The notes under the pieces are model-generated. The model saw only the letters and a program-made list of their open reading frames with translations. It did no database searches and had not been told where the DNA came from. Below, one piece after another: positions 3,285 to 25,687 of a DNA stretch of 28,585 nt. Source of the stretch: a virus; the IMG/VR virus record IMGVR_UViG_3300018481_001305, positions 1 to 28,585 of that record; one strand, 5' to 3'. The stretch's first letter is position 1. Every line of letters begins with the position of its first letter. A program made the translations under genes and the position numbers.

Positions 3285-4049
3285 GTGGCGAGCTCGGAGG
3301 CCGGGCGCCTGCTCACCGAGCGCCACAGGCAGGCCCAGCTTCAGGTCCGCGCTCGTGCTCTTCGGGACTACGTTCGTCTCTGGCCGATCTGGGAAGGTGA
3401 CGAGGATTCCTTCGCCCAGATGGTTGCGGCGTCGCTCGTGATCGTCCGCGGTTACAGCGCCCTTTCTGCGACCTTGGCCGGCAGTTACTTCACGAGCTAC
3501 CGCTTGGCCGAGGGGGTTCGCGGAGAGGCAGTCCCACGACTCGCCGGTCCAATCGACGAGGGGAAGGTGACCGCTGGTCTGATCGTCACGGGACGCGATG
3601 CGGTCGCTGGTGCCCTCGATGCCGGTCGGCCAGCTGACGAGGCGCGGGAGACCGCACTGGTTCGTACCTCTGGCAGCATCACCCGCCAGGTCCTCAATGG
3701 GGGCCGTGAGACGGTCCTGCGTTCTGTCGTCGAGGACAAAGAGGCCCTGGGTTGGGGTCGCGTCACCGATGGGGATCCCTGCGCCTTTTGCGCCATGCTC
3801 GCTGGCCGCGGTCCCGTCTACGAAGAGGACACCGTCGACTTCGAGGCTCACGACGAATGCGGCTGCGGCGCCGAGCCCGTGTATTTCCGAGACGCCCCCT
3901 GGCCAGGTCGCGCCCGCGAGTTCCACGACATGTACGACGAAGCCCTGATGCAGGCCCGCCAGGACGGCACGATGGCCACTGGGACCAGCAACAACCTGCT
4001 CAACACCTTCCGCCGGCACTACGACCGTCAGCGCGCAGCGCAGCGGTAG
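3285..4049 (+). CDS. MuF-like minor head protein (VG15-type)
   Basis: This is a 254-residue protein starting at GTG 3285, directly after the portal stop. The N-terminal two thirds are helical. Around residues 155-200 there is the cysteine motif of this actinophage family: GW-x-R-V-x-D-G-D-P-C-A-F-C-A-M-L (C166, C169), then GPVY, then H189, C192 and C194 in AHDECGCGAEPVY. Known relatives sit next to the portal and are injected or internal head proteins; some annotations call them capsid maturation proteases, but no protease active site is evident here. The Cys/His cluster could bind a metal ion (inference). Position after the portal and before the scaffold supports the assignment. Confidence 0.85.
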   Translation: MASSEAGRLLTERHRQAQLQVRARALRDYVRLWPIWEGDEDSFAQMVAASLVIVRGYSALSATLAGSYFTSYRLAEGVRGEAVPRLAGPIDEGKVTAGLIVTGRDAVAGALDAGRPADEARETALVRTSGSITRQVLNGGRETVLRSVVEDKEALGWGRVTDGDPCAFCAMLAGRGPVYEEDTVDFEAHDECGCGAEPVYFRDAPWPGRAREFHDMYDEALMQARQDGTMATGTSNNLLNTFRRHYDRQRAAQR

Positions 4050-4803: not shown

Positions 4804-5766
4804 ATGGCCAATGAATTCCTCAAGGGCAAGAAGATCGTGTCTCAGGGGCTCGGGCTCCTGAGACGCGAGCTTCTGCTCCCTCGCCTTGTCGTCCGCAAAG
4901 GTCTTGCGGACTTCCAGGGCGCGGAAGACGACACGATCAACATCCGCATTCCCTCGATCCTGAAAGGGCGCGAGTACGAGTGGCGGACGCGGAACGCGAA
5001 AATCGTGACCGACATGCTCAAAGAACTGTCGATTCCGATCACGCTCAACAAACATCCCTACAACGCGGTCGGTATCACCGACGAGGAGGCGACGCTTGAT
5101 ATCGCCTCCTGGGGTGAGCAGGTGGCTCGCCCGCAGATCGAAGCTGTGGCGGAAAAGCTGGAGTCCTACATCGCGGTCGCGATGGAGGAAGCCAACTACC
5201 GTCACGAAGTCACCTTCGAGGCGCCGGACCCGGAAGACGAGAACAGCTTCGCCTTCTACAACGCGGTGGTCGACGCACGTCAGCACCTGAATCAGGAGAA
5301 CGTTCCCCCGCAGGGGCGCAAGATCCTGCTCGGGGCGAACGTCGAGGCAGCGGCGCTGCGCTCGAAGCACCTGGTCAAGGCGGACGAGTCGGGCACCGAC
5401 GACACGCTGCGTGAAGCCAAGATCGGCCGGATCCTCGGGTTCGACGTGATCGGCAACTGCAACTCGGTCGATCCGGACTTCGCTGTCGCGATGTCCCCGA
5501 CCGCGTTTGCACTCGGCAACGTGGCCCCGGTCGTTCCCGGCGGGGCGAAAGACGGGGCGACGATGGTCCACGATTCGCTCGCGATGCGCTGGATTCGGGA
5601 CTACGACTCCGACTACCTGCGCGATCGTTCGGTCTACTCGGCCTTCGCCGGGGCGACCAGCGTCGAGGACGGTCGCATCCTCGACGTGGAGAGCGAAGAC
5701 TTCGGTGAGCTGACCGAAGAGAACGTGCGCGCGGTGAAGATCGACTTCACCGGGGTGGGCTCCTAA
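4804..5766 (+). CDS. Major capsid protein (HK97 fold, P22-coat-like group)
   Basis: The product has 320 residues and starts at ATG 4804. The N-terminus lacks the long delta domain seen in self-scaffolding HK97-type capsid proteins, which fits the separate scaffold gene upstream. The segment DDTINIRIPSILKGREYEW (about residues 40-60) and the following KELSIPITLNKHPYNAVGITDEEATLDI strand region resemble the P22 coat-like capsid proteins of actinophages. A long helix with Q-V-A-R-P-Q-I-E-A-V-A-E-K-L-E follows (about residues 108-122). Downstream, GRKILLGANVEAAAL, then GFDVIGNCNSVDPDFAVAMSPTAFAL, match the A-domain order. The gene is followed within 16 bases by a strong hairpin terminator, typical for a highly expressed head gene. 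Confidence 0.9.
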   Translation: MANEFLKGKKIVSQGLGLLRRELLLPRLVVRKGLADFQGAEDDTINIRIPSILKGREYEWRTRNAKIVTDMLKELSIPITLNKHPYNAVGITDEEATLDIASWGEQVARPQIEAVAEKLESYIAVAMEEANYRHEVTFEAPDPEDENSFAFYNAVVDARQHLNQENVPPQGRKILLGANVEAAALRSKHLVKADESGTDDTLREAKIGRILGFDVIGNCNSVDPDFAVAMSPTAFALGNVAPVVPGGAKDGATMVHDSLAMRWIRDYDSDYLRDRSVYSAFAGATSVEDGRILDVESEDFGELTEENVRAVKIDFTGVGS

Positions 5767-5825: not shown

Positions 5826-6269
5826 ATGGCACTCGCGACCAAAGAGGACTTCGAGCTTCGCCACGGGCCTGTGCTCGAGGACGAAGAGAAACGGGTGGCG
5901 GCGCTTCTCGATGACGCCACCGCACTGATCGAAGCGGAGCTTGCTGGGCTGGACGTCGATTGGCTCGGCGAGGAACCTGAGGACGACCCGCCGGCCGCAG
6001 TCAAGGCGGTTTGCATCCAGGTTGCCTACCGAGTCTGGAGCAACCCTGACAGCGTTGCGCGGGAGCAACTGGGGGAGGTCGCACGGACTTATCGCGGCAC
6101 CGACCAGGCGGATGCACTCTGGCTGACCTTCAACGAGGCGCGGCTTGTTCGGAAAGCCGCCGGCGCGGGATCAACGCTCCAGTCGCTCACGGTCGAAACG
6201 CCCTATTCGGGGGACCCGGACGAGCCTCACCCGATGGACTTCTGGCCGCTGGAAGAAGAGGGTTCGTGA
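5826..6269 (+). CDS. Head-to-tail adaptor (Gp19/Gp15 / HK97 gp6-like connector)
   Basis: This is a 147-residue acidic protein. The N-terminal MALATKEDFELRHG, a helix with RVAALLDDATALIEAELAGL, the helix PPAAVKAVCIQVAYRVWSNP and the short beta-like tail match the small helical head-tail connectors that form a ring under the portal. No Shine-Dalgarno sequence is visible ahead of ATG 5826; the 12 preceding bases follow directly on the terminator stem. The stop codon overlaps the start of the first glycosyltransferase gene by 4 bases (GTGA), so the structural operon and the sugar cassette are translated as one unit. Confidence 0.8.
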   Translation: MALATKEDFELRHGPVLEDEEKRVAALLDDATALIEAELAGLDVDWLGEEPEDDPPAAVKAVCIQVAYRVWSNPDSVAREQLGEVARTYRGTDQADALWLTFNEARLVRKAAGAGSTLQSLTVETPYSGDPDEPHPMDFWPLEEEGS

Positions 6270-6937
6270 CCGTCGCGATCCTGATCCCGACCCTCGGCCG
6301 TGCCGATGTGCTCGCTCCGCTCGTGGAGAGCTTCCGGGTCACGACCCCACCGGACTTCTACCGGCTCTACTTCGTGGTCGATCGAGACGACGCGGCGACC
6401 CACCAGTCACTTGCGGAGTTCGAGGGCGATCCTGACGTTCAGGTCGACGTTTGTGATGGCACGTACCCCGTCAAGATCTACGCCGGGTGTTGGTTGAGCG
6501 CGGGTGAGGATCTTGTTCTCCCGACCGCCGATGACATCGTGCCTCACCTTGGCTGGTACGAGGCCGCGCTGAAGCACTTCGAGGCCGGCGCGGACGTGGT
6601 CGGCACCAATGACCTGTCGCCTGCTACGCGGGAGGGGCGGATGGTCACGATGCCGATCGTCCGGCGCTCCTACACCGAAGATCCGGGGGCCGCTTGGGAC
6701 GAACACCGATCAGTCTTCCATCGCGGCTACCACCACAACTTTGTCGATCGAGAGCTTTGGGAGCTCGCCTGCCACCGCGGCGTCGCAGTCTTCGAGCCGG
6801 AGTCGGTCATTGAGCACCGCCACCACGGCTGGGGGACTCGGGAGGCTGACGAGACCGACGCCAAGGGGAACCAGCAGGGTTGGGAGCAGGACAAGGCTCT
6901 GTTCGAGAAGCGGAAGGCCCAATGGCTCGCGTCGTAG
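6266..6937 (+). CDS. Glycosyltransferase, GT-A fold (cassette gene 1)
   Basis: This 223-residue protein starts at GTG 6266, overlapping the adaptor stop by 4 bases. The N-terminus VAILIPTLGRADVLAPLVESF is a typical GT2-type nucleotide-binding beta-alpha unit. LPTADDI with D89-D90 stands in the place of the DxD metal and nucleotide-sugar motif. A later GYHHNFVDRELWELA and the segment VIEHRHHGWG match the acceptor-side motifs of phage-encoded GT-A enzymes. It should transfer a sugar from a nucleotide donor to an acceptor in the cytoplasm. The acceptor is unknown: virion protein glycosylation is suggested by its place between head-tail connector genes, while modification of host wall glycan is the alternative. 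It is the first of four overlapping or abutting genes. Confidence 0.8.
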   Translation: MTVAILIPTLGRADVLAPLVESFRVTTPPDFYRLYFVVDRDDAATHQSLAEFEGDPDVQVDVCDGTYPVKIYAGCWLSAGEDLVLPTADDIVPHLGWYEAALKHFEAGADVVGTNDLSPATREGRMVTMPIVRRSYTEDPGAAWDEHRSVFHRGYHHNFVDRELWELACHRGVAVFEPESVIEHRHHGWGTREADETDAKGNQQGWEQDKALFEKRKAQWLAS

Positions 6938-7608
6938 TCCTCGTCCCTCGTCGCCCGGAGCCTTGGCGGGACCAGCTGTGGCGCTATGTCCAACAGGAGA
7001 TAGAGACCGAACTCGACTGGCCGATCTTTGAGGGGGTCGACGCGGGCCAGCAGCCGATGAACCGAGCCGCTGCCAGAAACCGTGCTGCTGGGCAAGCCGG
7101 GGACTGGGAGGTTGCGGTCTTCCTCGACGCCGACACGGTCCCGGACTTCTCGAACCTTCAACGGGCCGTTGAGCTTGTGGGTGAGACCGGGAAGCTGGTC
7201 TGCGCACAGACCGAGTTTCGCTCGCTGAGCCGCGCAGGAACCGAGTTGGTGCTCGCTGGTCAGTGCGACCCGGAGTCGGCGCCAGTGCGGTGGGTCTATC
7301 CGAACCCGAAGTCCTCGTGCATCGCCATCGGTCGAGAGCTCTGGGATCTGGTCGGCGGTTACGACGAGCGCTTCGACGGGTGGGGCTGGGAGGACAGTTC
7401 GATCTTCCACGCTTGCCAGGCGCTGGCCGGCGTCGGGCGCCTGCCGGGCACCTGCCACCACCTATGGCATCCACGGAGCCCGGAGAAGAATCCGGGTCGA
7501 GATGCCTACCGGCGCAATGAGGCGCTCGGCGCCCGCTACAAGGCTGCTCGCAAGGATCCGGATGCGATGCGGGCGATCCTGGCGGAGCCGGGCGGGCAAC
7601 TCGCATGA
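6922..7608 (+). CDS. Glycosyltransferase with galactosyltransferase-like C-terminal motif (cassette gene 2)
   Basis: The product has 228 residues. ATG 6922 is chosen because MARVVVLVPRRPEPW begins the Rossmann-like domain; the gene overlaps its upstream neighbour by 16 bases. D69-A70-D71 (FLDADTVPDF) is a textbook DxD motif. Residues 145-158, GGYDERFDGWGWED, match the signature of the galactosyltransferase C-terminal domain (Glyco_transf_7C type), which binds the acceptor in beta-galactosyl- and N-acetylgalactosaminyl-transferases. HHLWHP near 179-184 is also typical. A hexose or hexosamine transfer is therefore likely, with donor and acceptor unknown. Confidence 0.85.
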   Translation: MARVVVLVPRRPEPWRDQLWRYVQQEIETELDWPIFEGVDAGQQPMNRAAARNRAAGQAGDWEVAVFLDADTVPDFSNLQRAVELVGETGKLVCAQTEFRSLSRAGTELVLAGQCDPESAPVRWVYPNPKSSCIAIGRELWDLVGGYDERFDGWGWEDSSIFHACQALAGVGRLPGTCHHLWHPRSPEKNPGRDAYRRNEALGARYKAARKDPDAMRAILAEPGGQLA

Positions 7609-8285
7609 TCCTTCTCGCCATCACCACGGACGGGCGGGGTGAGCTGCTCGAGCAGACCGTCGCCTCATTCGAAGAGCGCGTGTCCGGGGTCGACGGACCA
7701 CGGCTGATCTTCGACGACTCGGGAGACGCCGCCTACCAGGCCTGGCTGCACCGGACCTTCGATCACAAGGGGTACGCAGTGGTTGGCCGGGATTTCCGGG
7801 TGGGCCAAGGAAGGGCGCTGGCGGCGGCTTGGGCTCACCTTGCGAGGGACGAGTTCGCCGAGCACCCGTGGGTCTTCTGGCTGGAGGACGACTTCCTCTT
7901 TGAGCGCGATGTCGACCTCGACGCGATACGGGCGGTCCTTGACGAACGTCCCTATCTGCGGCAGATGGCGCTGCTTCGGCAGCCCTGGTTTCCGGGAGAG
8001 GTCAGGGCAGGGGGGATCGTCGAGCGGGACCCGGACGAGTACACGCGCCACATCCAGGGAGATGCGGAATGGCTCGAGCATCGCCTTTGGTTCACCCTGA
8101 ACCCGAATCTCTTTCGCCGCGAGCTGTGCTCGGTCAAGCGGCCCGCTGGCAATCGCCACGAGTGGAACTTCAGCCGCCAGCTCTGCGAGGACGAGACCGT
8201 CCGATTCGGGATTTGGGGCGACGGGGATGGGGGCGAGCCCTGGGTCCGCCACATCGGCGATCAGCGCCTCGGAACGGGCTACTGA
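7605..8285 (+). CDS. Glycosyltransferase-like protein (cassette gene 3)
   Basis: This 226-residue protein starts at ATG 7605 inside an ATGA overlap with the preceding stop. The N-terminus MILLAITTDGRGELLEQTVASFEE has the GT-A pattern. FWLEDDFLFE (E94-D95-D96) replaces the classical DxD motif with EDD, a form common in phage glycosyltransferases. The C-terminal LWFTLNPNLFRREL, EWNFSRQL and WVRHIGDQRLGTGY segments resemble a conserved block in related phage enzymes, as I remember them. It probably adds a further sugar to the same glycan as its neighbours. The specific activity cannot be read from the sequence. Confidence 0.75.
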   Translation: MILLAITTDGRGELLEQTVASFEERVSGVDGPRLIFDDSGDAAYQAWLHRTFDHKGYAVVGRDFRVGQGRALAAAWAHLARDEFAEHPWVFWLEDDFLFERDVDLDAIRAVLDERPYLRQMALLRQPWFPGEVRAGGIVERDPDEYTRHIQGDAEWLEHRLWFTLNPNLFRRELCSVKRPAGNRHEWNFSRQLCEDETVRFGIWGDGDGGEPWVRHIGDQRLGTGY

Positions 8286-9284
8286 GTGCCCGTCGATCTT
8301 CTGAGCCGGGAGGCTCACCATCTCGATCACATCCTCCCGTCATGGCTCGCTCTTCCCGACGCCCTTCGAGGCACCGCCTTCCTGCATAAGGACCTGCTCC
8401 CAAAGGCGGTCGAACGGGGGGTGCAAGCAGTCGAAGTCAGCGAGGCGCCGGAGACGGGCCCGCTGACGCTGGTCGCCAGCTACCTGGATCTGAAGCTCGC
8501 CCGGAAGCTCGGGCGACTGGTCGTCTATTCCGAGCACGGCGCTGGTCAGGGCTACGCGCAGGCAGATGGCACGCCGATCGGCTCGGGCTCCTACGTGGGG
8601 GCGATCGACCGGGCCGGCGTCGTGGCGGTGCTGGTTCCTGGCCGTCTCTCGGCCGAGAGACACCGGCGCAGCCATCCGACTATCCCGGCCTTCGAGGTCG
8701 GGGTGCCCAAGCTGGATGAACTGCACAGAGAGCCCTCACGCAGGGTTGGCGACAAGCCGGTCGTCGCAGTCTCGTTCCACTGGGAGTGCCGAGTCTGCCC
8801 GGAGACGCGGAGCGCCTTCCGGCACTACCGCCAGGGCCTGAAAAGGCTCTCGCAGAGCTTCGAGTTGATCGGCCACGGCCACCCCCGCGGGATGGCCCAG
8901 TTCCGCCGCCATTACAAGCAGGTGGGGATCGAGGTCGTCGAGGACTTCAACGAGGTCATCGAGCGAGCCGACGTCTACTGCGTCGATAACTCCTCGACCC
9001 TCTACGAATGGGCGTCGCTGGGTCGGCCGGTGGTGGTGATGAACGCACCCTGGTACCGGAAGAAGCTCGAGCACGGCCTGCGATTCTGGTCCCACGCTGA
9101 TGTGGGGCCGCAGGTCAGCGGTCCAGGGCAGTTGGCCGCGGGGATTGAAGCGGCGATCGCCGATGCGCCCGGGGCAGCTGACCGCCGTCAGGAAATCGTC
9201 GCCGACGTCTACACGGCCTGCGACGGACGGGGAGTGAAGCGGGCATCTGCCGCTCTGGCCGAGATCGCAAAGGAGTGGGGATGA
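8286..9284 (+). CDS. CDP-glycerol glycerophosphotransferase-like enzyme, GT-B fold (cassette gene 4)
   Basis: This 332-residue protein starts at GTG 8286, directly after the preceding stop. YSEHGAGQGY (H84-G85) and the C-terminal block DNSSTLYEWASLGRPVVVMNAP (residues 234-255) match the TagB/TagF-type fold, where a conserved His-Gly and an Asp-x-Ser-Ser segment line the CDP-glycerol site. IGHGHP at 195-200 is a further typical active-site loop. Family members transfer glycerol phosphate (or ribitol phosphate) in teichoic acid synthesis; some phage homologues are of unknown role. No transmembrane segment or signal peptide is seen, so the protein is cytosolic. It overlaps the next connector gene by 4 bases. 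It could alternatively use another nucleotide-activated donor. Confidence 0.75.
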   Translation: MPVDLLSREAHHLDHILPSWLALPDALRGTAFLHKDLLPKAVERGVQAVEVSEAPETGPLTLVASYLDLKLARKLGRLVVYSEHGAGQGYAQADGTPIGSGSYVGAIDRAGVVAVLVPGRLSAERHRRSHPTIPAFEVGVPKLDELHREPSRRVGDKPVVAVSFHWECRVCPETRSAFRHYRQGLKRLSQSFELIGHGHPRGMAQFRRHYKQVGIEVVEDFNEVIERADVYCVDNSSTLYEWASLGRPVVVMNAPWYRKKLEHGLRFWSHADVGPQVSGPGQLAAGIEAAIADAPGAADRRQEIVADVYTACDGRGVKRASAALAEIAKEWG

Positions 9285-9637
9285 GTGCGACCAGGATGAT
9301 GCGGACGCCCTGCACGCTGCTGCTCCGCCAGGAGGGCGAAGAGGACGCGCTCGGCAACCCGATCCCCGGTGAGCCCGTTGAGGTCGAGACGCTCTGTGCG
9401 TTCCAGCAGAAGCGCCGAGACGAGCCGCCCGCCGAGGGGGAGACCTCTGTCACCGAGTGGGACCTGTTCCTGCCCTACGGGACGGAGATCAACACCGGAG
9501 ACGCGGTGCGGGTGAAGGGCCACGTCTACGAGCTGGTCGGTGATCCCTGGGAGGCCGACGAAGGCTCGCGGGCGCTCTGGCATGTGGCGGCGACCGGCAG
9601 GCGGGTCTCCGGGGCTGACGATGAGGTCGGTTCCTGA
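9281..9637 (+). CDS. Head closure (stopper) protein
   Basis: The product has 118 residues from ATG 9281, which overlaps the preceding stop (ATGA) and has AAAGGAG 5 bases upstream; a GTG six bases earlier lies on the ribosome site and is rejected. MRTPCTLLLRQEGEEDALGNP, a middle WDLFLPYGTEINTGDAVRVKG and the following YELVGDPWE are the beta-barrel pattern of SPP1 gp16 / HK97 gp9-like stoppers, which seal the portal channel after packaging. Its place after the adaptor gene, interrupted only by the sugar cassette, supports the call. Confidence 0.75.
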   Translation: MSATRMMRTPCTLLLRQEGEEDALGNPIPGEPVEVETLCAFQQKRRDEPPAEGETSVTEWDLFLPYGTEINTGDAVRVKGHVYELVGDPWEADEGSRALWHVAATGRRVSGADDEVGS

Positions 9638-10050
9638 TGCCGATCCCTTCGGCCCTGCAGGCCACGGTCACCTACCTGAAGACGGTCGACGCGGTTCAGG
9701 ACGCCGGCGCGGGGGCGCGTGTGTCGACTGGGACTCCTTCGAGTCGTAGCGCCCCGTGGATTCGCGTGGCGCTGATCGGCGACCCGCCGACTGATGGCGG
9801 CGTGCCCGACCATCACATCGAAGCGCACATGCAGATCGATGTCTTCGCTGGTGAGGCCGCGAACTCCGCCCTGGCCGTGGACAACCTGTCGATCGCAGTT
9901 CGGGACGCCCTGTCGAGGATGCACAAGTCCGAGCACGACGGCGCGGTCGTGACCGGGTCTGAGTCTTTCCGGAGCGGTCCCTATTCCGGCGAGGATGAGC
10001 CGGCGATGGAGTACTTCCGCGTCGACGCCACGGTCTGGATGCACGGATGA
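9637..10050 (+). CDS. Tail terminator / tail completion protein candidate
   Basis: This 137-residue protein starts at ATG 9637, sharing one base with the preceding stop (TGATG). The pattern of an N-terminal helix (ALQATVTYLKT), strands with WIRVALIGDPP and the central HHIEAHMQIDVFAGE, a helix NLSIAVRDALSRM, and a C-terminal strand EYFRVDATVWMHG matches tail terminator folds (lambda gpU / SPP1 gp17 types). These hexamers cap the tail tube and join it to the head. The call is by position and fold-like pattern, without a diagnostic motif. Confidence 0.6.
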   Translation: MPIPSALQATVTYLKTVDAVQDAGAGARVSTGTPSSRSAPWIRVALIGDPPTDGGVPDHHIEAHMQIDVFAGEAANSALAVDNLSIAVRDALSRMHKSEHDGAVVTGSESFRSGPYSGEDEPAMEYFRVDATVWMHG

Positions 10051-10466: not shown

Positions 10467-11045
10467 TTGTCGCAGAACGCCGAACAGATCAAGGTCGCCG
10501 CGAACGGCGGCCTCTACATCGCCCGGTTTGAAGACGAACCGACCCTTCCGACGAATCCCGAAGATCCGCTCGACGCGATCTTCAACGAAGTCGGGTTCTT
10601 CAGCGAGGACGGGGTCACGTTCAACAAGAGCGAAGAGAAAGAGGAGATCCGGGTCTGGCAGTCGCCCACGGCGGTCGACGAGATCGTCACCTCTCGCGAC
10701 TTCAGCGCCGGCGGCTCGCTCATGCAGTGGAACCGGGACACGGTCGCGATTGCCTTCGGCGGAGGCGAATGGTCCGAACCGGAGCCCGACGTCTATCGCT
10801 TCGACCCGCCGAATGACTACGACCCCCTCACCAAGTGGGTCGGCGTCCTGGAGACGATCGCGGGTGACCGCGTCGACCGCTGGGTGATCAAGCGCGGCAC
10901 GTTCACGGGGGACATCGAGACGCAGGCAGTTCGGAACGCAGCTATGGCGCTCCCGATCACGCTCTCGGCGCTCACCCCTACCGGCGACACTCGTCCCTGG
11001 TACTACCTGTCCAACGACCCGGCCTTCGCGGCCGTCGGTTCCTAG
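10467..11045 (+). CDS. Major tail tube protein
   Basis: This 192-residue protein starts at TTG 10467 behind AAGGAGG. ANGGLYIARFEDEPTLP, then GFFSEDGVTFNKSEEKEEIRVWQ, then DRWVIKRGTFTGDIETQAVRNAAMALPITLSAL are typical of actinophage major tail proteins, which form the stacked hexameric rings of the non-contractile tube. The position directly before the two tail assembly chaperones and the tape measure gene is the standard siphovirus order. The next gene begins one base after its stop. Confidence 0.88.
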   Translation: MSQNAEQIKVAANGGLYIARFEDEPTLPTNPEDPLDAIFNEVGFFSEDGVTFNKSEEKEEIRVWQSPTAVDEIVTSRDFSAGGSLMQWNRDTVAIAFGGGEWSEPEPDVYRFDPPNDYDPLTKWVGVLETIAGDRVDRWVIKRGTFTGDIETQAVRNAAMALPITLSALTPTGDTRPWYYLSNDPAFAAVGS

Positions 11046-21954: not shown

Positions 21955-23738
21955 GCCTGCTGCTCCTACTGAAAGGGGGCAAAGGAGAAGAAGTATCGAC
22001 CGGCGATCACCGCAACCGCTTGCGCGTCAACGAGCGCCCGCCCCTGCGCCAGCGGTTCCTCGCTACCGCCCCCACCGGCCGAACCTACCGCTGGGGAGAG
22101 GACAGCCCGCACGCAGATCAGATCTTCGAAGACCTCACGCACTCCGACTCCGCCAACGGCGGCTATAAGGATCTGCAGGCCTCGTTGCCTCGCCTCCCCG
22201 GCGTGGACTACGCCGACATGCAGCGAGGCACGAAGATCGAGCTCTTCGGGGCAGGGCAACGGCTGGACTGGCTGGGTCGCCTTGAGCGCGCCCCGATCGT
22301 CACTGGCGACAAGGTCGTCATTTCGCCGAGCGCAGTGGGCTACGAAGCGGCGCTGACCGACGACTCCTCAGCCCAGGAGATCTACATCGGCGCGGACCTG
22401 GGGGAATGGGGAGAGCCGAGCGCTCGCCGCAAGGCCCTCAAAGCGATCGAAGCCTGGAAGCTGAACAACGGCGGGTCCTCCTCGCTTCTCCCGGCCGGTT
22501 CTCCCGATCCCGAAAACCCGACCTCATTCTCCCGCGTCCCTGCGATCGGCCATAGCTGGACGACGATCAACACCGACGGCGTCGCCGACCCCGATGTTGT
22601 GGAGAGCTGGTACTCGGGGGGCGGGGTCAAACTCGGCGCGATCGAACTCGAACTGCTCAACACCAAAGGCCCGGGCGGAGGGTCATGGCACAACTACGTC
22701 ATTGCATCGTCGGATGACGCTGCGACCGCGATCAAACTTCTGGGTGACTTCAAAGCCACGAGCGGTTCCACCGGGTTTGCTCTGGATGATGGGTTCTACT
22801 ACCTACTGCTGAGGAGCTTCTACGGGGCGCCGGCAGAAGAAGAAGCGCTCTGGGAACAGCAGTGGCGCAACATGCGTGTGTACGGCCGCTCCGGGGTTCC
22901 GATCTACGGCACCTTCCCATCTAGGGGTGTCCTCGCCTCAGATGTCGCTGCCAACGCACTCTCCCGATGGGCGAAGGAAATCCACTTCACCACGGGTCCC
23001 TACGGGTCGATCAAGCCGACTCAGTTCCTAATCCCGCACCTAGGCTTCAAGACGCCGACGACGGTCGCAGACATGGTCCAGCAGGCGACTCGCTTCGAGC
23101 TACCGGAGTACGGGGTCTGGGATGGTCCCCGTCGTTTGCCGACCTTCTTCATGAACCGCCGCGGCGAGCGGGAAGGGCGGAAACGCTGGCGGGTTCGGGC
23201 TCGCGATGCCCAACTCGAAGACACCGGCCAGCAGTTGGACCGCGTCTGGAACGGAGTTATCGTGCAGGGCACCGGGACGGATGGGTCGACGATCTATGTC
23301 GGGCCACCCGGCTCGGGAATGCAGATCACCAGCGCCCGGTGCATTGACCCAGACCCGCTCAACCCCGTCAATCAAATCCCCGGGAAAAATCGGTTCGCCA
23401 AGATCGAGATGCGAGGCGTCTGCACGATCGAAGGCATGGAAAAAGCGGCCGAAGTCTTCCTCGAACAGAGCAAGCTGCTGGACGGCTCTGGTCGAGCGAC
23501 CCTCACCGGCTACGTCGAAGACGAGCGCGGCCGCGAATGGCCCTACTCCTCCGTCCAGGGCGGAGACCTGATCGAATTCCTCGGCTCATCGATCCCCGGC
23601 TACCGCTACATCGTCAACGCCCCCAAGACCCGGTCAAACTTCTCGGTCTCGGTGGACATAGACGCTCCACCAGAGTCCTATGAGGCCCTGATGGAGCGAC
23701 TGAACGCCGAATTCATGGGGATTGGATTCGCCAGCTAG
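21951..23738 (+). CDS. Tail-associated hub / Tal-like minor tail protein
   Basis: This 595-residue protein starts at ATG 21951 in an ATGA overlap; the same frame is open upstream but antiphase to the preceding gene. A short basic leader precedes a region with VNERPPLRQRFLATAPTGRTYRWG, and a gp27-like first ring domain with GTKIELFGAGQRLDWLGRLERAPIVTGDKVVISPSAV (about 90-126), where an oil-rig arrangement of strands is usual. A central region contains a beta-rich sheet (SWHNYVIASSDDAATAIKLLGDF). The C-terminal half has RVWNGVIVQGTGTDGSTIYVG and the GDLIEFLGSSIPGYRYIVN strand block typical of the second hub domain. It would plug the tail tube under the Dit ring. Its stop shares CTAG with the stop of the reverse-strand gene downstream. 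Confidence 0.7.
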   Translation: MSLLLLLKGGKGEEVSTGDHRNRLRVNERPPLRQRFLATAPTGRTYRWGEDSPHADQIFEDLTHSDSANGGYKDLQASLPRLPGVDYADMQRGTKIELFGAGQRLDWLGRLERAPIVTGDKVVISPSAVGYEAALTDDSSAQEIYIGADLGEWGEPSARRKALKAIEAWKLNNGGSSSLLPAGSPDPENPTSFSRVPAIGHSWTTINTDGVADPDVVESWYSGGGVKLGAIELELLNTKGPGGGSWHNYVIASSDDAATAIKLLGDFKATSGSTGFALDDGFYYLLLRSFYGAPAEEEALWEQQWRNMRVYGRSGVPIYGTFPSRGVLASDVAANALSRWAKEIHFTTGPYGSIKPTQFLIPHLGFKTPTTVADMVQQATRFELPEYGVWDGPRRLPTFFMNRRGEREGRKRWRVRARDAQLEDTGQQLDRVWNGVIVQGTGTDGSTIYVGPPGSGMQITSARCIDPDPLNPVNQIPGKNRFAKIEMRGVCTIEGMEKAAEVFLEQSKLLDGSGRATLTGYVEDERGREWPYSSVQGGDLIEFLGSSIPGYRYIVNAPKTRSNFSVSVDIDAPPESYEALMERLNAEFMGIGFAS

Positions 23739-24502
23739 AGGATCTGCTCGCTGATGATGAACGTCTGGTCGATTCCGGCGGCCTCGGGGCCAACGGTGCA
23801 GGTTCCGCCTGCACTGGGGCTTGGTACCCGAGGACGAGCCCAAATTTCAATCTGGTGAGAGCCAACGCCGAGTCCAGGGAATAGCGCAGAGGCGGCGACA
23901 CTGGTCGCCGCAGAGGCGAACACTTCACCGCCGCTGCCGGATACAGGCTGCCCGTCGACTCGTAGCTGGAAGACACAGCCGTTCCCGGCCGCCGTCCCAA
24001 TCCAGTCGACCTGAAGCACCGACCCGGCATCCGTCTTCTCGTAGGCCCCGACCGGGTCGACGAGTTCGAAGTTGGCTACCTGTGGTTCACCAAAGATCCA
24101 GGACTTCGACGCCGCACCCTTCGCTTCGAGTTCCTGCGGCTCGGGCATATCAACATCCTGGGGCGTGACCTGGCCATTGCCGATCTCGCTCGAGGTCACC
24201 TGGCCCGTTCCGATCGCCTCTGAGTCGACTTGGCCAGCGCCGATATCGGAGGCGGCCACGGCGTCGTCTTTGATCTCTGAAGTTGAGACCGAGTTCGAGC
24301 CGATGTCACTGGCCCTCACTGCGTTCTTGTGGATGTCCTGGGTGAGGATTGACCCGTTCTTGATCTGCTTCGACGTGACGATCACGCCGCTCGCAACGGC
24401 TGCCGTCCCCGTGAGGGCAACGACGAGAGCGAGGGTCGCCATCACATTGGCGTAGTTGCGACTGATGAACCGCATGGGCCGCTTGTAGTCTCGGTGAGTC
24501 AT
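23735..24502 (-). CDS. Membrane-anchored or secreted protein with decapeptide repeats (cargo)
   Basis: This is a 255-residue product from the ATG at 24502, with AAGAAAGG upstream on the reverse strand; the frame extends further upstream but there is no better site. The N-terminus is basic and is followed by a hydrophobic segment (about 20-40, NVMATLALVVALTGTAAVASG), either a signal peptide or an anchor. Seven tandem ten-residue repeats fill 47-116 with the pattern I-x-x-x-x-[VI]-x-x-x-[DE] (for example IGTGQVTSSE). A beta-rich C-terminal domain follows, about 130-255. From memory, similar leader-plus-repeat proteins are common in Solirubrobacterales. The gene runs opposite to the tail operon and shows no structural-protein motif. 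A role in changing the host surface or in exclusion is a guess. Confidence 0.75.
   Translation of the reverse strand: MTHRDYKRPMRFISRNYANVMATLALVVALTGTAAVASGVIVTSKQIKNGSILTQDIHKNAVRASDIGSNSVSTSEIKDDAVAASDIGAGQVDSEAIGTGQVTSSEIGNGQVTPQDVDMPEPQELEAKGAASKSWIFGEPQVANFELVDPVGAYEKTDAGSVLQVDWIGTAAGNGCVFQLRVDGQPVSGSGGEVFASAATSVAASALFPGLGVGSHQIEIWARPRVPSPSAGGTCTVGPEAAGIDQTFIISEQIL
24155..24364 (-). repeat. Seven tandem 30-bp units coding for decapeptide repeats
   Basis: Each 30-base unit codes for one ten-residue repeat of the gene at 23735-24502. The units begin IKNGS, IHKNA, IGSNS, IKDDA, IGAGQ, IGTGQ and IGNGQ. The last three are the most alike, which suggests recent duplication there; the copies differ mostly by amino-acid substitutions, so slippage is not the only source of variation. 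Confidence 0.8.
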
Positions 24503-24532
24503 CGGGATATGCCTTTCTTTTCTCGATGGCCG

Positions 24533-24561
24533 GCCCCCGGCTGTTCGTGCAGCGCGGGGGC
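24533..24561 (-). terminator. Hairpin between two reverse-strand cargo genes
   Basis: GCCCCCG (24533-24539) and CGGGGGC (24555-24561) form a 7-bp stem. Inside it GCTG (24540-24543) pairs with CAGC (24550-24553) around a 6-base loop, leaving one bulged base. The whole 11-bp structure sits in the 88-base gap between the stop at 24591 and the start at 24502. It has no T-run on either strand. It may end the first cargo transcript or protect the second message. Confidence 0.55.
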
Positions 24562-24590
24562 ACTTGATTGATTGAAAGAGCTTAGCGCGG

Positions 24591-24983
24591 TCACCGCACC
24601 TGGATGACGTCGACGCAGTCCGAACCCTCCGGCAGCACATTCAGGCAGTAGTAGTCGGTTCGCCGGATCTTGTAGGAGTAGCGGATCAGGGGGAACCCGG
24701 TTTGGTTGCTGGTCCAGACCAGCGCGGAGCCGGCATATCCCGTATCACCTAGATACCAACTGACCGCGCATCGAATCCGCGCTGAGGAGAGGGGCTGGTC
24801 GCAGTTGACCTTACGGTCCTGCCCGATGTCAAAGCCCAACTCACCGTTTTTCGCCAGGGCCTCATGTAGTGCTCGCTTGGCTTCATTCGATCCCAACTGC
24901 CCCGCACTTGCCGCCGACGAAGAGGCATGCAGCGAAATGGACGCGACTATTAGAAGGGCGAGAAGACGGGCCAGTCTCAGCAT
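24591..24983 (-). CDS. Secreted Cys-containing protein of unknown function (cargo)
   Basis: This 130-residue product starts at ATG 24983. MLRLARLLALLIVASISLHASSSAASAGQ is a clear signal peptide with an Ala-rich cleavage region. The mature part contains KVNCDQPLSSARIRCAVSWYLGDTGYAG (two Cys), a strand-rich SYKIRRTDYYCLNVLPEGSDCVDVIQV (two more Cys) and no catalytic motif. The four Cys residues of the mature part could form two disulfides outside the cell. From memory it resembles small secreted domains common in Solirubrobacterales proteins. It overlaps the upstream gene by 7 bases (ATGCTGA) and has only weak ribosome-site sequence, so it is likely translated by coupling. An exclusion or surface role is possible but unproven. 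Confidence 0.7.
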   Translation of the reverse strand: MLRLARLLALLIVASISLHASSSAASAGQLGSNEAKRALHEALAKNGELGFDIGQDRKVNCDQPLSSARIRCAVSWYLGDTGYAGSALVWTSNQTGFPLIRYSYKIRRTDYYCLNVLPEGSDCVDVIQVR

Positions 24984-25687
24984 GGCGTGAAATCTTGCTC
25001 GTAGAGGTACCGCTTCCCAAAATGCCGGCCATATTTGACCGTCATGGATCGGAACCATTCACGTCCTTGGCATCTCTCGGGCAGGCCGAGCCGGATCTTG
25101 GCGGGCTTCGTGAAGCCCGGATAGGTATATCCGCCCAGTTCAACGAGCTTTCCGAATCCGAGAGCGGTCCGCTCGTCCCACGTCTGCCATCGGATTCCCT
25201 GTATCCAGGTGTGAGCGCCGGTAATCATTTTATGGGGGCGAACTCGACAACCATCCCTTATCTCCGCTGCGCACGGTCGCGGGTGGATTGGGTGGTGGTT
25301 GCACGGCACCAGCTCAAGTTCATCGCCAATTCGGTTCGACAGCCCGCTGAACCTGAGCTTGTTCCCGTAGCAGGCCTCGCTACCAATCTGCACGAGCGCC
25401 CAGTGACTGGCCTCCAGCCTGTAAATAGCCACAGCGTTCTGTGCCTGCCGTGGTGGAAGGTTGGGCCGGACGATGGCTGCCGCCCAAAAGCCGTCCGAAC
25501 TTATCCGAACGTCATTCAAACTGAAGCCGATTGGAGATGCCTGAGCCTCTTCGGTGGCGGCTGTGATTTCCGCCACCTCGTCGGGGGTCGGACTGCGGTG
25601 GACCGTCGCGGCAGATGGGATCGCCGAGCATGCGGCGGCGACAAGAACGCCTATGCAGGCGAGAGAGCGTAGCCGTCCGTTCCGCAT
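24977..25687 (-). CDS. Secreted two-domain protein of unknown function (cargo)
   Basis: This 236-residue product starts at ATG 25687, with GGGGGAGG 8 bases before the start on the reverse strand. MRNGRLRSLACIGVLVAAACSAIPSAATV is an export signal; C20 in VAAAC is at best a weak lipobox. The N-terminal part has NDVRISSDGFWAAAIVRP and a helix-strand end EASHWALVQIGSEACYG. The C-terminal part has GIRWQTWDERTALGFGKLVELGGYT, then KPAKIRLGLPERCQGREWF and a C-terminal Cys. Its C-terminal Arg/Trp/Tyr pattern resembles secreted proteins I associate with Solirubrobacterales. It is the first gene of a reverse-strand pair and is divergent from the membrane-protein operon at 25807. Confidence 0.7.
   Translation of the reverse strand: MRNGRLRSLACIGVLVAAACSAIPSAATVHRSPTPDEVAEITAATEEAQASPIGFSLNDVRISSDGFWAAAIVRPNLPPRQAQNAVAIYRLEASHWALVQIGSEACYGNKLRFSGLSNRIGDELELVPCNHHPIHPRPCAAEIRDGCRVRPHKMITGAHTWIQGIRWQTWDERTALGFGKLVELGGYTYPGFTKPAKIRLGLPERCQGREWFRSMTVKYGRHFGKRYLYEQDFTPC

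Follow-up and report, generated by a model that had tools for sequence, protein, structure and literature searches.

Glycosylation of phage virions has been reported for a few mycobacteriophages (PMC12363180, PMC12619734, PMC11600133). The part of PMC12363180 that reports Freeman et al. 2023 states that capsid and tail-tube glycosylation by phage glycosyltransferases (GTs) was shown for Che8, Corndog and Myrna, so that the phenomenon as a kind is already known, and PMC12619734 locates the Che8 glycans on the C-terminal ends of the capsid and tube proteins. No acceptor rule is stated in the three papers as covered here, that coverage ending short of Freeman et al. 2023, and a literature search for a C-terminal serine acceptor, whose reach likewise ended short of that study, found nothing. 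Here we describe a cassette of four GT genes (GT1 to GT4) among the head and neck genes of the IMG/VR virus contig IMGVR_UViG_3300018481_001305, a 28,585-base stretch of 65% GC (hereafter the window) that represents the late region of a siphovirus, as a partial genome. We consider it likely that this cassette decorates the virion proteins of the phage itself with an O-linked glycan, and that the serine of a Gly-Ser at their C terminus is the acceptor. New with respect to the sources read are the enzyme set containing GT4, the way it recurs at the head-tail connector, and the proposal of Gly-Ser as acceptor.

The genes of the window run in the order terminase, portal, protease, scaffold-like gene, capsid, head-tail adaptor (Ad1), the four GTs, head closure (Hc1) and tail terminator, followed by tail completion, tail tube, chaperone, tape measure, tail proteins and endolysin. 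The features on which the argument turns are these:

4804 to 5766, plus strand: major capsid protein (phrog_283), C terminus FTGVGS, predicted glycan acceptor
5758 to 5763, plus strand: codons GGC TCC for the terminal Gly-Ser of the capsid
5826 to 6269, plus strand: head-tail adaptor Ad1 (phrog_137, E 2e-17), C terminus EEEGS, predicted glycan acceptor
6266 to 6937, plus strand: GT1, GTG start, GT-A glycosyltransferase resembling the GT2 family, PTADD motif
6922 to 7608, plus strand: GT2, ATG start, 16-nt overlap with GT1, galactosyltransferase-like GT-A enzyme of phrog_1721
7605 to 8285, plus strand: GT3, ATGA overlap with GT2, GT of phrog_3047, EDD motif
8286 to 9284, plus strand: GT4, GTG start, abutting GT3, GT-B fold, TagF/TarL-related, EHG...DNSS motifs
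9281 to 9637, plus strand: head closure Hc1 (phrog_501, E 4e-14), C terminus DEVGS, predicted glycan acceptor
9637 to 10050, plus strand: tail terminator (phrog_123), C terminus WMHG, not a predicted acceptor
10467 to 11045, plus strand: major tail (tube) protein (phrog_117), C terminus FAAVGS, predicted glycan acceptor

The original prediction, made from the letters of this DNA, had described four coupled GT genes between Ad1 and Hc1, and both the coordinates and the flanks (phrog_137 and phrog_501) bear this out. The overlaps at the two edges (GTGA at 6266-6269 and ATGA at 9281-9284) are exact, and all internal junctions overlap or abut. The GC of the cassette, 0.65-0.67, and its GC at third codon positions (GC3) equal those of the neighbouring genes, so there is no sign of a recent foreign insertion, a possibility that we considered and set aside.

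The known systems resemble the window in part. Che8 (gp108-gp109-gp110) shares with it a homologue of GT2, gp109, and Gly-Ser ends on the capsid and tube, as on four window proteins. Unlike those of the window, the Che8 GTs lie at the right end of the genome and comprise gp108, in which a GT and a methyltransferase are fused, and gp110, of phrog_854, without the GT1 and GT4 types; in the window, unlike in Che8, the adaptor and head-closure proteins also end in Gly-Ser. Idergollasper, of cluster O (the Corndog group), carries a GT cassette (gp33-gp36) in its head operon that likewise includes a phrog_1721 enzyme, its capsid ends in LVGS and its tail tube in GDS. This cassette differs in its place, between portal and protease, and in its order, O-methyltransferase-GT-GT-GT, with the O-methyltransferase and enzymes of phrog_4447 and phrog_854 replacing GT1, GT3 and GT4. 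Rctr41k (KX853513) has a homologue of GT4, 39% identical, two genes beyond its capsid/protease gene, a capsid ending in AEGS and a tail protein ending in PGS; unlike in the window, GT4 stands alone there, with no GT1-GT3 in the stretch read.

Comparison of synteny with related contigs, as the original prediction had suggested, showed that the distant relative L002 has this set of four GTs in the same order and the same place between Ad1 and Hc1, and this conservation indicates that the four-gene order is not due to chance. The GTs of L002 and the window share 54-67% identity, versus 26-44% for the flanking virion proteins, and their capsids belong to different families (phrog_10 versus phrog_283; hhalign probability 0.1%), both ending in Gly-Ser. 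On a neighbourhood map drawn with profiles built for this analysis, at least 13 contigs (the window, L002, L004, L095-L098, L100, L101, L103, L106, L119 and L120) have GTs 3' of the capsid or adaptor gene and 5' of Hc1, terminator or tail-tube genes. The order in L003 is capsid, methyltransferase, a GT2-GT3 fusion and a GT, and in L005 (3375-8945) GT-like genes and a methyltransferase form a run whose last member adjoins a head-tail adaptor gene, the adaptor ending in PSGS. As seen in L002, the mapped contigs, L003, L005 and Idergollasper, GTs within the head operon recur, though Che8 and others place theirs elsewhere. GX15bay and prophiGD91-2 carry GT genes just upstream of the terminase.

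These comparisons bear on two claims of the original prediction. Glycosylation of virion proteins, which it had derived from operon position, is backed by the conserved place, the homology of GT2 and the C-terminal Gly-Ser ends, but placement in the operon is by itself no proof: the Che8 GTs, and relatives of GT2 and GT3 in Phrappuccino, cluster C mycobacteriophages and Gordonia phages, sit far from virion genes. Its impression of an undescribed arrangement holds for the exact four-gene set including GT4, which was found in none of the named phages searched, but not for GTs in a head operon, which have precedent.

The capsid, Ad1, Hc1 and tail-tube proteins of the window are mutually unrelated, yet each terminates in Gly-Ser. 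This ending occurs on 5 of the 236 open reading frames (ORFs) of at least 40 aa in the window, namely these four and one small minus-strand ORF, and the chance of its falling on four of the eight head-tail proteins is P ~3e-6. Across the cassette contigs the counts of Gly-Ser ends are 20/27 for capsids and 5/12 each for tail tubes and terminators, with none on the terminases (0/32), portals (0/27), proteases (0/15) or GTs (0/186). The endings are spelled with every one of the four Gly codons and with Ser codons of both boxes, so selection acts on the protein. A Shine-Dalgarno artefact was examined as the source of these ends and rejected: the varied Gly and Ser codons exclude it, Gly-Ser also stands on capsid genes without a close downstream start, and it is missing from the terminase, portal and protease genes that share these operons.

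The same ending is found in named phages. The Che8 capsid terminates in KTGS and the tail tube in SDGS, and none of 14 further Che8 head and tail proteins checked (terminase, portal, protease, scaffold, adaptor, stopper, terminator, tape measure and the minor tail proteins read) ends in Gly-Ser. Among other phages with GTs, prophiGD57-2 has Gly-Ser on its capsid, tail tube and one minor tail protein, prophiGD91-2 has Gly-Ser on the capsid and Ala-Ser on the tube, Brujita has Gly-Ser on the tube and Ala-Ser on the capsid, and Sephiroth has Gly-Ser on the tail tube only. TM4, Giles, Dubu, AGM1 and phiSASD1 have no annotated GT in the regions read and no Gly-Ser ends; within the Che8 capsid family, the GT-carrying Che8 and prophiGD57-2 are thus Gly-Ser-ended, and the homologues of Dubu, AGM1 and phiSASD1 are not.

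To relate these ends to GT genes, capsid relatives were gathered regardless of GTs, giving 128 distinct capsids, and the comparison took in the loci that carry a GT or show 9 kb or more of downstream sequence. Ser-ended capsids make up 17 of 18 at loci with GTs versus 9 of 43 at loci without (p 8.5e-8, Fisher test, not corrected for phylogeny), and Gly-Ser-ended capsids 11 of 18 versus 2 of 43 (p 4.5e-6, likewise uncorrected). The trend is present in both capsid families. For genes up to 9 kb downstream that encode neither capsids nor GTs, Gly-Ser ends occur on 13 of 72 versus 6 of 405 (odds ratio 14.7, p 1e-7).

Several observations weigh against our interpretation. Two capsid trees contain only about five changes of GT state, so the Fisher p values are optimistic and overstate independence; more independent support comes from the recurrence of Gly-Ser on unrelated proteins inside single genomes. 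The sole capsid at a GT locus that lacks a terminal Ser, that of L219, ends in Thr. Capsids ending in Ser also occur where no GT is seen, some on contigs of 30-90 kb, and in Mangeria and Myrna, GT-carrying phages of the contractile cluster C group, neither capsid nor tube is Ser-ended. Some Hc1 labels in the census of C termini come from an iterated profile and are unconfirmed by PHROGs (L021). As for the enzymes, GT1 and GT4 have no clear counterpart in the cassettes of proven type that we examined, and the phrog_854 proteins Che8 gp110 and Idergollasper gp36 are at best very distant from GT3.

Capsid relatives ending in AGS, AAS or HQS with no GT detected were noted in L169-L172, L160, L175, L177 and L143. 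For the Ser-ended group without GTs, either the GT is of an undetected type or the Ser ends have another cause. The L227 capsid, with an AAS end and no GT at its locus, has a GT elsewhere on its contig according to a whole-contig search with PF00535, a search that under-detects, having missed known GT contigs such as L184 and L231. In the contractile, GT-carrying Mangeria, Myrna and Phrappuccino, the gene directly preceding the capsid gene encodes a phrog_2783 protein with an invariant LAGGS end, and this protein is a candidate glycosylated head protein:

L294, 6377 to 6922: Myrna gp98
L297, 5279 to 5821: Mangeria gp98
L296, 36656 to 37192: Phrappuccino gp54

The Gly-Ser ends could instead serve some other role, as an assembly contact, as the site of another modification or as inherited chance, with the cassette directed at a different virion protein such as a tail fibre. 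Such an explanation could draw on the Gly-Ser and Ala-Ser ends that occur where no GT is detected and on the few independent origins on the capsid trees, but it sits poorly with the presence of Gly-Ser on unrelated proteins of one phage, with its tracking of GTs in two capsid families and in named phages, and with its match to the Che8 capsid and tail tube, for which C-terminal glycosylation is reported. We regard it as improbable, and propose on sequence grounds that the O-glycan is accepted at a C-terminal (Gly/Ala)-Ser tag.

The original prediction of three GT-A enzymes and one GT-B enzyme is correct, with GT1 and GT2 assigned by family matches, GT4 by its structural model, and GT3, provisionally, by phrog_3047 and its EDD motif, structural matching having returned nothing usable for it. 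GT1 matches the Pfam GT2 family weakly, and also chondroitin synthase and other GT-A enzymes; none of 50,697 named phage records contains a relative at E 0.01, and its close relatives were found only in viral contigs, five in number. GT2 belongs to phrog_1721 (E 3e-27), and its profile matches beta-1,4-galactosyltransferase 1 in both N-terminal and C-terminal parts, as well as Che8 gp109 (E 2e-25) and Idergollasper gp35 (E 1e-24), which are in the same phrog. GT3 is a member of phrog_3047, labelled 'galactosyl transferase', with relatives mainly in mycobacteriophages and Gordonia phages; the profile match is weak (E 0.13, or 0.004 with an iterated profile) to Che8 gp110, the phrog_854 GT that, like Corndog gp38, is required in virion glycosylation of that type, though GT3 has the EDD motif in common with it. 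A single continuous ORF joins GT2 and GT3 in L003 (6860-8182) and L004 (7275-8648), which suggests that the two act as a pair.

The score of GT4 against PF04464 (TagB/TagF/TarL) is 21.9 bits, with a gathering cut-off of 22.1, so that it is related to this family and not filed as a member; profile matches to Cps3D (E 7e-4) and TarL (E 0.05) are weak. Modelled from 31 sequences, GT4 adopts a confident GT-B fold (predicted local distance difference test, pLDDT, 93; 38 for a model from the single sequence), and Foldseek aligns it with TarL/TagF at E ~1e-8 and equally well or better with UDP-GlcNAc 2-epimerases. GT4 thus resembles the TagF/TarL CDP-alditol phosphotransferases in its fold and weak profile match, but differs in being a single 332-aa unit whose fold is equally similar to the epimerases. 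Besides the Rctr41k protein, from a named phage, 111 relatives were found in viral contigs. A genome scan with the GT4 alignment gave a single match, on a 3.4-kb contig of a metagenome-assembled genome that is possibly itself phage, and no clear cellular relative. GT4 may add a different, terminal group.

Phage-encoded GTs that alter the serotype of the host exist, and the kinship of GT4 with the wall-teichoic-acid polymerases TagF/TarL and the capsule polymerase Cps3D raises the question of whether the cassette serves superinfection exclusion or host takeover by modifying a polymer of the host surface (a capsular or teichoic-acid-like glycan); its position in the virion gene region would then set no more than a late timing. 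We think this unlikely: the cassette lies late, within the virion operon, GT2 belongs to a virion-glycosylation family, the scan gave GT4 no clear relative among cellular genomes, the four products show no obvious membrane segment (judged by reading the sequences, without a tool), and the C-terminal Gly-Ser signature would be left unexplained. Phage GTs that glycosylate DNA are also described (Pyle et al. 2024, as cited in PMC12619734), and the cassette might accordingly act on hypermodified bases of the phage genome. Since GT2 falls in a family tied to virion glycosylation, the genes sit late among structural genes, and the window, a partial genome, shows no recognised gene for hydroxymethyl-pyrimidines or base modification, this is very improbable.

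A role of the cassette in virion glycosylation is therefore well supported by sequence comparison, and we infer that the virions of the window phage are glycosylated, with the terminal Ser carrying the glycan and with the following enzyme order and GT4 donor. Because the GTs are read with the head and neck genes, the enzymes would be at hand during synthesis of the capsid, adaptor, head-closure and tail-tube subunits. The acceptor would be the terminal serine of an exposed Gly-Ser, with Ala-Ser and rarely Ser-Ser or Thr as variants. GT2, the galactosyltransferase-like enzyme, would start or extend the glycan as a pair with GT3, GT1 would attach a further sugar, and GT4 would attach a terminal sugar or polyol-phosphate. 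The likely benefit would be a shielded or altered particle surface. A broader proposal, towards which we lean slightly less than away, is that a (Gly/Ala)-Ser C terminus is a general, portable O-glycosylation tag on unrelated virion proteins (capsid, neck, tail-tube and head-associated) of siphoviruses and contractile phages, travelling with GT cassettes whose enzymes include types absent from the mycobacteriophage cassettes examined, among them a TagF-like enzyme that would place a polyol-phosphate on the virion.

Other features of the window were recorded. No sigma-70-like promoter and no plus-strand terminator was found between positions 4000 and 12000, in scans of a weak kind, and a tRNA search of the window returned none. 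The window terminase is nearest to those of Streptomyces phages (48-49%). On the minus strand, 23735-24640 encodes a protein with a membrane-like N-terminal segment and a repeated 'SDIG/SEIG/GQV' pattern (SGVIVTSKQIKNGSILTQDIHKNAVRASDIGSNS...), without a Pfam match; such repeats, which we take to be frequent in Thermoleophilia/Actinobacteria, possibly hint at the host. Two mutually overlapping, secreted-looking minus-strand ORFs, 24591-25058 and 24977-25687, match no family, and the minus-strand ORFs within 24591-25687 interrupt an otherwise plus-strand late region.

If the acceptor proposal is true, a two-residue tag would make glycosylated phages, and the proteins modified in them, predictable from sequence, and would account for the action of a single enzyme set on several different proteins. 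Virion glycosylation would extend to uncultured phages with new enzyme types, and a rule for the glycosylation of phage particles would become testable by a simple experiment on a laboratory phage.
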